Shown here: positions 4,025-63,897 of the stretch, one piece after another
Numbering within the stretch: the first letter of the stretch is position 1
Layout: the number at the start of each line of letters is the position of its first letter
NCBI RefSeq assembly: GCF_013185185.1
Contig: NZ_JAAZWE010000002.1
Span: 1,119,595-1,183,594 of the forward strand
DNA length: 64,000 nucleotides
Direction of reading: 5' to 3'
Origin: Saccharibacillus endophyticus
GTDB lineage: Bacteria > Bacillota > Bacilli > Paenibacillales > Paenibacillaceae
Notes under the pieces: model-generated
What the model was told of the DNA's origin: nothing
What the model saw: the letters and a program-made list of their open reading frames with translations, nothing else
The model's database searches: none
Made by a program: the position numbers and the translations under genes

Positions 4025-4086
4025 ATCAGTGCCCATGCCTAACGTTCGATACAAAAATCATGTCGTTATTTGAAACAGCTCCACTC

Positions 4087-4114
4087 AAGCCGATCCCGTA
4101 AGAGATCGGCTTTT
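4087..4114. terminator. Terminator between convergent SLH and mtnU genes
   Basis: Arms AAGCCGATC and GATCGGCTT with a short loop, followed by TTTT on the plus strand. It probably serves the SLH gene and may also stop minus-strand transcription. Confidence 0.7.
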
Positions 4115-4142
4115 GATATACCTTTTTAAAAAGTATTTCCGT

Positions 4143-4931
4143 TTACTCATACAATTCGGGCCTGCGATCTTCAAACACCGGAATTCTTCCCCGCGCTTTG
4201 ATCACTTCCGCCATATCGATATCCGCGGTGAGGAATTCATCGCTCTCGCCGGCTTCCGCAATGACCTCTCCCCAAGGCCCGACCACCATGGAATGTCCCG
4301 CGAAAACATTCGAAGGATCGCTGCCGCTCCGGTTGCAAGCGATCACCCAGCATTGGTTCTCGATCGCTCTGGCGATCAGCAGCGCGCGCCAATGTTCCAG
4401 ACGCGCCAGCGGCCACTGGGCGACCACGAACAACGTTTCCGCTCCCGACGATATATGCGTCCGTATCCATTCGGGAAAACGGATATCGTAACAAACCACG
4501 CCTGCGCTTCGGATACTGCCCAACTCGAACAACCCTTTTCCGCTGCCGGAACGCAAATAGAGATGTTCGTCCATCAGCTTGAACAAATGGGCTTTGTCGT
4601 ATTCGCTGATTGGCTGTCCTTCGCGGTCGTAAACGAGCAAGGTGTTATACACGCCGTCTCTTGTGCGCTTGGCGGTAGAACCTCCCACCAGATATACGCC
4701 GTAGCGCCTAGCCGCCTCTGACAAAAATGCTTTGGTACGCCCGGCTCCTTCCTCCGCGATCTCGTCCAGCCGCGTAAGGTCATAACCGATCGTCCATAAT
4801 TCGGGGAGCACGATCACGTCCGGCGTATCCTTCATCGCGCGTTCCAGCAATTTTTCCATTTTCGCATAATTGGCTTCCGGATTTCCGAATATGACATCAT
4901 GTTGAATACAGGTGACTTTCCATTTATTCAT
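4143..4931 (-). CDS. mtnU: Carbon-nitrogen hydrolase, MtnU/omega-amidase type
   Basis: A 262-residue nitrilase-superfamily amidase. The Glu-Lys-Cys triad is visible in PELWT, YDKAHLF and GVVCYDIRFPEW. Relatives such as Bacillus subtilis MtnU (YkrU) and omega-amidases hydrolyse alpha-keto acid amides. In methionine salvage this removes the amide left after glutamine-dependent transamination of ketomethylthiobutyrate. The ATG at 4931 is chosen because GGAGG lies 7 bases upstream; an upstream ATG at 4952 lacks a site. The gene faces away from a SAM-I riboswitch at 5121. That context supports a methionine-salvage role, although no other mtn gene is present here. Deaminated-glutathione amidase activity cannot be excluded. 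Confidence 0.8.
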   Translation of the reverse strand: MNKWKVTCIQHDVIFGNPEANYAKMEKLLERAMKDTPDVIVLPELWTIGYDLTRLDEIAEEGAGRTKAFLSEAARRYGVYLVGGSTAKRTRDGVYNTLLVYDREGQPISEYDKAHLFKLMDEHLYLRSGSGKGLFELGSIRSAGVVCYDIRFPEWIRTHISSGAETLFVVAQWPLARLEHWRALLIARAIENQCWVIACNRSGSDPSNVFAGHSMVVGPWGEVIAEAGESDEFLTADIDMAEVIKARGRIPVFEDRRPELYE

Positions 4932-5081: not shown

Positions 5082-5120
5082 TCAGTCATATGCTTTACTT
5101 ATACGTGATGAATAGAACAT

Positions 5121-5306
5121 CTTATCAAGAGCAGGCGGAGGGAAAAGCCCGATGAAGCCCGGCAACCGACCCTTTATGGGGCACGGTGCTAATTCTTGCT
5201 CGTTCATTCGAATCCTGCTTGTTTTTTGCGCGGACGAATGAACGGAGAGATAAGAAGAGACCTTCGCCCATTCGAGCCTCTTCTTGATGATAAGAAGAGG
5301 CTTTTT
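5121..5306 (+). ncRNA. SAM-I riboswitch (S box) with expression-platform terminator
   Basis: The aptamer at 5121-5254 has the P1 arms CTTATC and GATAAG and the conserved core AGAGCAGGCGGAGGGA, GCCCGATGAAGCCCGGCAACC-type P2/P3 strand and GGTGCTAATTCTTGC. A long hairpin, CGTTCATTCG...CGAATGAACG, precedes the closing strand. The platform at 5276-5306 is a terminator, GCCTCTTCTT with AAGAAGAGGC and TTTTT. Its 5' arm can pair instead with AAGAAGAG just after P1, the usual antiterminator arrangement. S-adenosylmethionine binding should therefore stop transcription. No credible gene follows within 320 bases. Confidence 0.95.
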
Positions 5307-7253: not shown

Positions 7254-7928
7254 TCAAGACAAGCTACGACCCAATGTTTCGTCCGAATCGTCGAAATAAG
7301 CGCGAACGATCTGCCCGATTTGCTCTTCGTCGCCCGAACGCAGTCCTTCGATCACGGTCCGGTGCTTGTCCGCGATCCACTCCATTCGTTCGTTTCCCTG
7401 CTTAAAACCATTATCCGTCGTCAGCAAAATCACCGTCATGACGATCGGACGGATATTGTTCCATAGATGCAAAATTCGGGTATGACCCGCTTCCTGCACG
7501 ATGCGTTCATGAAACGAAAAATCCTGATAAGCAAATTCCACGCGGTCGCCGTGCTTGATCGCCAGTTTCATCCGATCGATACCCTGCTCCAGACGCATGA
7601 TCAACGTTTTGTTATCCCGTTCGGCCAACCGCTGCTGCGCAAAGCTTTCGATCAGATAACGCACGTCGTAAAGTTCCTTGATCGCCGCAAGGTCCAAGCC
7701 GATCACGACCGCGCCCATGCGTTCCAAACGGATCAAGCCCTCGCCCGACAGCATTTTAAGCGCTTCCCGAACAGGCGAACGGCTGGCGCCGAACAGTTCC
7801 GCTACTTTGTTTTCCGAAATAACTTCTCCAGGCCGGATCTCTTCGTTGATAATTTGCAGTCGCAGCCGACTCGCGATCGATTCGCCGAGCGAAGCTCCCT
7901 GAAGCCAAGCCGAAGGATATTGCATCAT
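7254..7928 (-). CDS. gntR: GntR-family transcriptional repressor of the gluconate operon
   Basis: A 224-residue FadR-subfamily GntR regulator. The N-terminal winged helix-turn-helix covers about residues 20-85, with GEVISENKVAELFGASRSPVREALK as the recognition region. An all-helical FCD ligand domain follows, with conserved acidic/His positions near LYDVRYLIE and FHERIVQEAGHTR. The ATG at 7928 has AAGGAG 7 bases upstream; a TTG at 7955 is in frame but precedes the ribosome site. It lies between gnd and gntK. The perfect palindrome at 8960-8977 upstream of gnd closely resembles the known GntR operator, so autoregulation with gluconate or 6-phosphogluconate as inducer is likely. Confidence 0.93.
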   Translation of the reverse strand: MMQYPSAWLQGASLGESIASRLRLQIINEEIRPGEVISENKVAELFGASRSPVREALKMLSGEGLIRLERMGAVVIGLDLAAIKELYDVRYLIESFAQQRLAERDNKTLIMRLEQGIDRMKLAIKHGDRVEFAYQDFSFHERIVQEAGHTRILHLWNNIRPIVMTVILLTTDNGFKQGNERMEWIADKHRTVIEGLRSGDEEQIGQIVRAYFDDSDETLGRSLS

Positions 7929-8977: not shown

Positions 8978-9041
8978 CTTTCCTGTTTATCATACTCTCT
9001 TGTTGGATAGCTGTAAAGCGTTCAGTGAAGCTTGAAAGCTG

Positions 9042-9148
9042 CGAGAGAAATTCGTTCAAAACGCTGTCTCGCTCGGAAAGTCGAATTGGATTTGAAGCAG
9101 GAATCTTTCCGAGTTCAAAGGCGTCTTTCACTGAATTTCCCTCTCCGC
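9042..9148. repeat. Large palindromic element P, copy 1
   Basis: Shares with 39242-39432 and 63619-63740 a conserved order: a left arm containing GAAATTCGTT, an inner stem, TTCAAAGGCG, then CACTGAATTTC as the right arm. Here the inner stem is CTCGGAAAG (9073-9081) with CTTTCCGAG (9106-9114). The outer arms are GAGAGAAATTC and GAATTTCCCTC. The stems differ in sequence from the other copies yet remain complementary. It occupies the gap between the gnd promoter and the protease 3' end. Confidence 0.75.
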
Positions 9149-39205: not shown

Positions 39206-39235
39206 AAGAAGCCTCCCTAAATTGGGACGCTTCTT
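39206..39235 (+). terminator. Terminator after patB
   Basis: AAGAAGC.TCCC pairs with GGGA.GCTTCTT. A very similar hairpin (AGAAGCCTCCC...) recurs at 39438-39467 on the far side of the P element. Confidence 0.75.
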
Positions 39236-39241
39236 ATTAGC

Positions 39242-39432
39242 TGTCGAGAAAATCACATTGACGCGGGAAGCGAGAAAACTCCGAGAGAAATTCGTTCCGA
39301 TCGCGTGTTGAAATCGAGAAAAAGATTAAATTTTTAGAAGAATTTTCTCGATTTCAAAGGCGAACATTTCATTTCTGCACTGAATTTCTCTCTCCATTTT
39401 CTCGCTTCCAGCTACGTTCGACTTTCTCGACA
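39242..39432. repeat. Large palindromic element P, copy 2 (191 bp, complete)
   Basis: The most complete copy, a long imperfect palindrome. Pairs of arms: TGTCGAGAAAATC (39242-39254) with GACTTTCTCGACA (39420-39432), one mismatch; GGAAGCGAGAAAA with TTTTCTCGCTTCC; GAGAGAAATTC with GAATTTCTCTC; and GAAATCGAGAAAA (39310-39322) with TTTTCTCGATTTC (39343-39355). Conserved bases shared with copies 1 and 3 include AAATTCGTT, CGCGTGTTGA, TCAAAGGCGAACA and CACTGAATTT. Similar terminators flank it on both sides. Confidence 0.8.
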
Positions 39433-39437
39433 CGTTG

Positions 39438-39467
39438 AGAAGCCTCCCTTATGGAAGGCTTCTTTTT
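39438..39467 (+). terminator. Second terminator copy, between patB and fucI
   Basis: AGAAGCCT pairs with AGGCTTCT, followed by TTTT. Near-duplicate of the hairpin at 39206-39235. Confidence 0.75.
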
Positions 39468-63618: not shown

Positions 63619-63740
63619 GCGAAGGGGGAAATTCAGTGAAGGAACGGAGTGTTCGCCTTTGACTTGGGAAAGCCTCCTTGTATACATTCAATCTAGCTTT
63701 CCCAAGTCAACACGCGACCGAAACGAATTTCCCCCGCAGC
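63619..63740 (-). repeat. Large palindromic element P, copy 3
   Basis: Read on the minus strand: GGGGGAAATTCGTTTCGG, CGCGTGTTGA, inner stem GACTTGGGAAAGC with GCTTTCCCAAGTC (63661-63673 and 63696-63708), TCAAAGGCGAACA, CACTGAATTTCCCCC. The outer stem is GGGGGAAATTC/GAATTTCCCCC, where copy 2 has GAGAGAAATTC/GAATTTCTCTC. Pairing is kept while bases change. Confidence 0.75.
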
Positions 63741-63897
63741 CGCCAAGCTTCCCAAGCGAATAGGAACTTCTCTCGGTTCGAGAAAGCTTACGATGAAAGC
63801 TGACCTTAAAACGCTTTGGCAGCCTGCCTTTTTTCATCCGCACGATGGGTGATGGACCGAAAAAAAGGGCAACCATAGCCCGAGCGAACGGACGAAT

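Follow-up and report, generated by a model that had tools for sequence, protein, structure and literature searches.

Transposable elements that recognise DNA secondary structure rather than sequence are known from the IS1182 family. IS1272, a member of this family, targets hairpins and terminators (PMC4923244, 2016; PMC5678879, 2017). The outcome reported for IS1272 is deletion of the hairpin, whereas duplication of the whole stem-loop appears as a hypothetical “pathway b” in a drawing (PMC5678879). The Saccharibacillus element described here resembles IS1272 in the transposase family involved, in the hairpin target, which is often an intrinsic terminator, in the lack of a primary sequence preference and in its insertion in both orientations. 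However, IS1272 deletes or replaces its target hairpin and does not duplicate it, whereas in Saccharibacillus the whole hairpin is duplicated. Bacterial MITEs (e.g. MITEAba12, PMC6382973; review PMC10969869) likewise are short and non-coding, carry the terminal inverted repeats of a full-length IS, generate target duplications and reach high copy numbers. In contrast to these, the Saccharibacillus element has an interior without relation to the IS, namely a palindromic core found across the order, and what is duplicated at the target is a structural unit whose length varies instead of a fixed number of bases. In the open-access full text that we searched, neither the Saccharibacillus IS nor the MITE was described in the papers found.

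Two further systems share features with the element or its core. REP/RAYT elements are intergenic palindromes, present in many copies per genome, with a short conserved motif beside variable stems, and the Saccharibacillus element is similar in all of these respects. However, a Y1 transposase gene (RAYT/IS200, Y1_Tnp, PF01797) was found in only one of 17 Saccharibacillus genomes and is absent from the other 16, and RAYT/IS200 was therefore rejected as the mover. Hairpin duplications are, to our knowledge, not a feature of REP elements. Integron attC sites are imperfect palindromes in which unpaired bases are conserved while the complementary stems vary, as in the core, but no cassette arrays were seen here and movement in Saccharibacillus goes with IS1182-type ends.

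The window, i.e. the whole stretch of DNA that was analysed, comprises 64,000 nucleotides of the Saccharibacillus endophyticus genome. A first-pass annotation made from the letters alone had described three palindromic copies sharing a set of unpaired blocks, and we find all of them in place. The covariance model R1, built from an alignment of 40 diverse Saccharibacillus cores including copy 3 (as locus L012) but leaving out copies 1 and 2, matches all three. The features are as follows:

9037..9146, + strand: core of copy 1 (R1, 54.3 bits, E = 5.3e-12), several broken pairs
39207..39235: left terminator hairpin copy AGAAGCCTCCCTAAATTGGGACGCTTCTT (diverged), direct repeat with 39438-39464 (locus L011), A-tract to the left
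39237..39437, + strand: copy 2, the complete element of about 201 bp, with terminal repeats of the IS1182 type
39242..39254 and 39420..39432: terminal repeats of copy 2, TGTCGAGAAAATC and GACTTTCTCGACA; the ends match the IS in loci L272, L273 and L274
39277..39395, + strand: palindromic core of copy 2 with P1, P2 and the conserved unpaired blocks (R1, 129.1 bits, E = 6.7e-32)
39438..39464: right terminator hairpin copy AGAAGCCTCCCTTATGGAAGGCTTCTT, followed by a T-tract
63621..63741, - strand: core of copy 3 (R1, 126.2 bits, E = 3.8e-31), outer ends diverged

The span 39242-39432 originally assigned to copy 2 has its limits exactly at the outer edges of the two terminal repeats (TGTCGAG... on the left, ...CTCGACA on the right). 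Copy 1, in which the P2 foot is changed, the small hairpin is missing and the terminal repeats are not recognisable, is a degraded or variant form of the element. Apart from the repeats, a SAM riboswitch (RF00162, 73.5 bits) is located at 5119-5256 of the window.

Read from the outside, the Saccharibacillus element starts with the terminal repeat CAGGCTGTCGAGAAAGTC, followed by a second stem and by P1 (arms, for example, GGGAGAAATTC / GAATTTCTCCC), inward of which lies the block TTCCGGTCGCGTGTTGA. Inward of P2 (arms, for example, AATCGGGAAAA / TTTTCCCGATT) comes the block TCAAAGGCGAACA, then a tiny hairpin (for example ACTATCGT, ATTTCAT or GCTGGCGC), and then the block TCCTTCACTGAA. The far end leads back outward to ...GACTTTCTCGACACGTTG. 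The inverted repeats enclosing the core in Saccharibacillus are CAGGCTGTCGAGAAAGTC / CAACGTGTCGAGAAAGTC. Most elements are 199–200 bp long; others reach 236–238 or 272–274 bp by means of extra hairpin modules of about 37–43 bp, which are possible at two junctions and beside P2. In one variant (L227, around 430-620) a small hairpin module takes the place of the whole P2 region. Folded as single-stranded DNA, positions 39240-39434 reach -48 kcal/mol in comparison to -25 kcal/mol in shuffles (z = -6.7). An autonomous version with an ORF inside the element’s own ends was not found, all real end-to-end distances being below about 310 bp. The longer end-to-end spans at L043 and L108 turned out to be chance matches inside coding genes.

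Both terminal repeats are present in 74 of 142 Saccharibacillus copies. In 57 of these 74 the complete terminator hairpin is directly duplicated on both sides of the element with an aligned length of 16–34 bp, and the borders of the duplication are the feet of the hairpin. Flank-to-flank direct repeats exceeded the 99th percentile of mismatched-flank controls in 67 of the 142 copies, where about one was expected. Of the 56 distinct hairpin pairs that entered the comparison, half consist of identical copies. Copies in S. qingshengii carry the same hairpin in direct orientation on each side, usually with an A-tract outside the left and a T-tract outside the right one. Cases with only a T-tract (17) and only an A-tract (16) are equally frequent, thus there is no preferred orientation of insertion relative to the terminator. 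Empty sites were found at two orthologous loci: the hairpin-element-hairpin arrangement of S. qingshengii corresponds there to a single hairpin in S. deserti (G005). At locus L138 (around 4050-4500) two tandem elements alternate with three near-identical terminator hairpins (hairpin-element-hairpin-element-hairpin). Gene context (divergent in 5 of 84) was taken from a crude ORF caller that misassigned strands and has no evidential weight.

A search of the genus for the IS1182 catalytic domain gave ten matches. A 1,568-bp IS is present in four copies (L272, L273, L274, L277) with 90–99% mutual identity in the genomes G003, G011 and G012, which represent three species. Its ends are CAGAGTGTCGAGAAAC (or CAGAATG...) and CAGGCTGTCGAGAAACT. 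It has the terminal 15 bp or so, CAGGCTGTCGAGAAA, in common with the element, and the similarity stops after the terminal repeat. Three of the four copies are surrounded by perfect hairpin duplications (31 bp at L273, 21 bp at L274 and 20 bp at L277; none at L272), and a second IS lineage (L279) by one of 26 bp. Hairpin duplication was not seen at the other IS1182 lineages (L282–L287), therefore the habit is confined to some lineages of the family. The transposase is encoded in two ORFs matching NF033551 (IS1182 family transposase; E = 2.7e-63 and 3.8e-85) and also PF05598 and PF13751. The ORFs are separated at an AAAAAAG run (GGAAAAAAG) with the same layout in L273 (2238-2260, - strand) and L274; this split probably reflects programmed frameshifting. 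IS and element adjoin at shared hairpins in L136 and L274.

Since the IS contains no core and only the terminal 15 bp or so are common to both, the element did not arise from the IS by simple deletion. Derivation by internal deletion is common in MITEs but not required. The matching ends together with the same hairpin duplication make the Saccharibacillus form most likely an IS1182-type MITE. The partner IS is present in G003, G011 and G012 but not clearly in G000, G001 and G005; G008 has only general IS1182-type matches. The window genome itself contains one weak IS1182 transposase match (E = 2e-4), and S. alkalitolerans (G001) shows perfect hairpin duplications but no IS1182 match. In these two genomes the partner has therefore been lost, missed or replaced.

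From the observed ends, hairpin duplications, empty sites and matching IS, as well as the lack of a wobble bias described below, we conclude with a probability of roughly 83% that the Saccharibacillus element is a non-autonomous MITE of about 200 bp which uses IS1182-family ends, inserts at terminator hairpins while duplicating them, and carries an older, order-wide core. Judging from sequence, the transposase of the IS1182-type IS may act in trans on the element. The palindromic terminator would form a hairpin as DNA, and the transposase would join the element ends to the two 5’ feet of this hairpin. As the cuts in the two strands would lie on opposite sides of the hairpin, repair should copy it as a whole (16–34 bp), giving hairpin-element-hairpin. 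Each direction of transcription would then still meet a hairpin with its T-tract, so that both termination signals would survive. With the termination signals rebuilt, insertion should do little harm and copies could therefore accumulate. A cruciform model of this kind would also permit other outcomes, e.g. deletion of the hairpin as reported for IS1272.

The first-pass annotation had favoured a structured RNA or cruciform and had named a mobile element with a partner transposase as the finding that would speak against RNA. This is largely what we find in Saccharibacillus, where the copies form complete mobile units that have terminal repeats and target duplications and for which a matching transposase exists; the partner it had suggested looking for is of the IS1182 type and not a RAYT. 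The element ends are absent from cores in other genera, and the IS1182 partner does not account for the core there.

The core itself is abundant and widespread. At least 150 copies were detected by covariance model in the window genome, which bears out the earlier expectation of many copies per genome, and again at least 150 in S. sacchari (G012), other genomes having 1–126. All loci matching the core by DNA pattern come from Saccharibacillus, and the pattern in the window genome is the same as in its genus mates. Searching related genomes with the covariance model, a check that the first-pass annotation had proposed, detected the core in 232 of the 297 Paenibacillaceae genomes (14 of 19 genera) and, at the level of the order, in 216 of 298 (29 of 49 genera). 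Beyond the genus the stems have very different sequences with complementarity kept, including the P2 foot (TCGC/GCGA, CCGC/GCGG, TTGC/GCAA, GTGC/GCAC, TTGT/ACAA). Copies within one genome form private subfamilies, from which it follows that they multiply.

Outside Saccharibacillus the outer ends differ (e.g. ATCGAT in G145). The abundance of the core does not follow that of IS1182: G037, G044 and G051 have 10–12 core matches and no IS1182 match, and G018 has IS1182 and no core. The core is therefore more widely spread than, and separate from, the IS1182 ends. In other genera, direct duplication of hairpins on both sides of the core did not exceed the control; some of these cores are instead surrounded by inverted copies of the flanking sequence. 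In other Paenibacillaceae, L207, L185, L175, L210 and L187 have cores between long inverted copies of the local flank, and L207 shows what looks like the 3’ end of a coding frame a second time, inverted, across the core (17 bp, perfect). These inverted flanks suggest that sequence was copied by templating from one side of the palindrome to the other. In G087, two oppositely oriented cores spaced by about 100 bp make up a palindrome of palindromes (L192 and L195). A reduced core is repeated seven times in tandem with a unit of 124 bp in S. sacchari (L056, 5316-6152 and 2910-3002); it lies downstream of an N gap around which the region is repeated, and an assembly artefact is possible. Elsewhere, L055 contains a match to the BsrC small RNA family (7288-7375, 77.2 bits).

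A search of Rfam with the core gave nothing at the gathering threshold and nothing credible at a relaxed threshold, in line with the earlier failure to assign it to a named RNA. It is an undescribed repeat family, with none such in Rfam or in the open-access full-text literature searched.

The compensatory changes in the stems, on which the original interpretation was built, are real. Both sides change in 18 of 33 pairs in alignment A2 and in 30 of 33 pairs in alignment A3, which covers other genera. In A2 as well as in A3 the covariation score was reached by none of 500 shuffles, although these counts are not probabilities because the copies are related. In A3, which was fitted to the covariance model, 420 cells changed on both sides in comparison to 116 in shuffles and to only 3 single-sided standard-pair changes. 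The effects are nevertheless large, and slid controls gave 0.08–0.20 against 0.77.

RNA helices are expected to tolerate G-U wobble pairs. The ratio of G-U to A-C cells is 22:26 in Saccharibacillus and 5:19 elsewhere (about 4,000 cells, about 1% each), 8 of the 19 A-C cells outside Saccharibacillus coming from one column. Each A-C mismatch turns into a G-U when the complementary strand is read, so wobble tolerance is seen on neither strand. In contrast, single differences between duplicated terminator hairpins, which are real RNA structures, comprise 14 G-T and 5 A-C; the contrast to the pooled elements gives Fisher p = 0.008, based on small numbers and non-independent copies. With G-U no commoner than A-C, the core stems thus behave as DNA palindromes. 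The covariation is genuine, but the reading as selection on RNA is not supported, given also the near absence of one-sided intermediates in other genera; the cruciform or DNA-level half of the original proposal is tenable.

The arms of the core may be kept complementary by selection on DNA folding, by copying arm from arm, or by both. One explanation for the covariation, which we rate at somewhat less than even odds, is mutational: template switching in the palindrome during replication would copy one arm onto the other and change both sides of a pair in one step. The scarcity of one-sided intermediates (3 versus 420) is consistent with this, as are the inverted flank copies around some cores such as L207 with its 17 perfect bp and three duplicated hairpin pairs (L040, L083, L108) that differ only by one compensated base pair. 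However, selection acting through G-T intermediates can also produce compensated pairs in terminators, and some of the mismatched copies resemble chimaeras of different subfamilies. To explain the conserved unpaired blocks, one would still have to invoke selection or a recent common origin.

These blocks also speak for a core that is a structural site in DNA, a cruciform or single-stranded hairpin whose unpaired bases are read by a host or mobile-element protein in an attC-like logic, and which is moved by such a protein in other genera. We consider this slightly less probable than template switching. The strand symmetry of the covariation, the proliferating subfamilies with private stems in each genome and the outer ends that differ by genus (ATCGAT in G145) argue for it, but the candidate proteins fail: besides the Y1 transposase, missing from 16 of 17 Saccharibacillus genomes, Cas1 is absent from the copy-rich G005, G008, G012 and G013. 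More tentative still is the wider picture in which order-wide folded DNA sites, tens to more than a hundred per genome, keep their unpaired bases conserved and their arms near-perfectly complementary through a strand-symmetric process, are recognised as structure by some protein, and have been captured repeatedly by transposon ends of different kinds, the captor in Saccharibacillus being an IS1182 lineage that duplicates hairpins.

We regard it as improbable that the core functions as a structured RNA, either a small RNA or a 3’ UTR element, which the transposon carries in Saccharibacillus. Such a role would agree with the conserved unpaired blocks TTCCGGTCGCTGTTG, CAAAGGCGAACG and CTCCTACA, with stems that vary freely yet stay complementary across the order, and with a location where co-transcription with 3’ ends is expected; but neither strand shows the G-U excess seen in the terminator hairpins (14:5), Rfam has no match even at the relaxed threshold, and insertion has no orientation preference relative to the terminator (17 versus 16). 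Integration by Cas1 in the manner of casposons or CRISPR likewise leads to duplication of a palindromic repeat and has the same hairpin-insert-hairpin geometry, up to the two-element, three-hairpin array at L138. It is hardly credible beside an IS1182 partner with matching ends, and as a general mechanism it is refuted by the lack of the gene in genomes with fresh copies (G005, G008).

Compensatory base changes are by themselves not sufficient proof of an RNA. The comparison of G-U with A-C separates RNA from DNA-level palindromes and could be used on other candidate RNA repeats. The Saccharibacillus element provides natural evidence, including empty sites, for a structure-directed transposition in which a hairpin is duplicated as a whole, which for IS1272 had been proposed only as a possible pathway. 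The repeat family to which its core belongs occurs in a large group of bacteria from soil and plants. By targeting terminators and rebuilding both termination signals, the element suggests a route by which a mobile element may reach high abundance with little harm.
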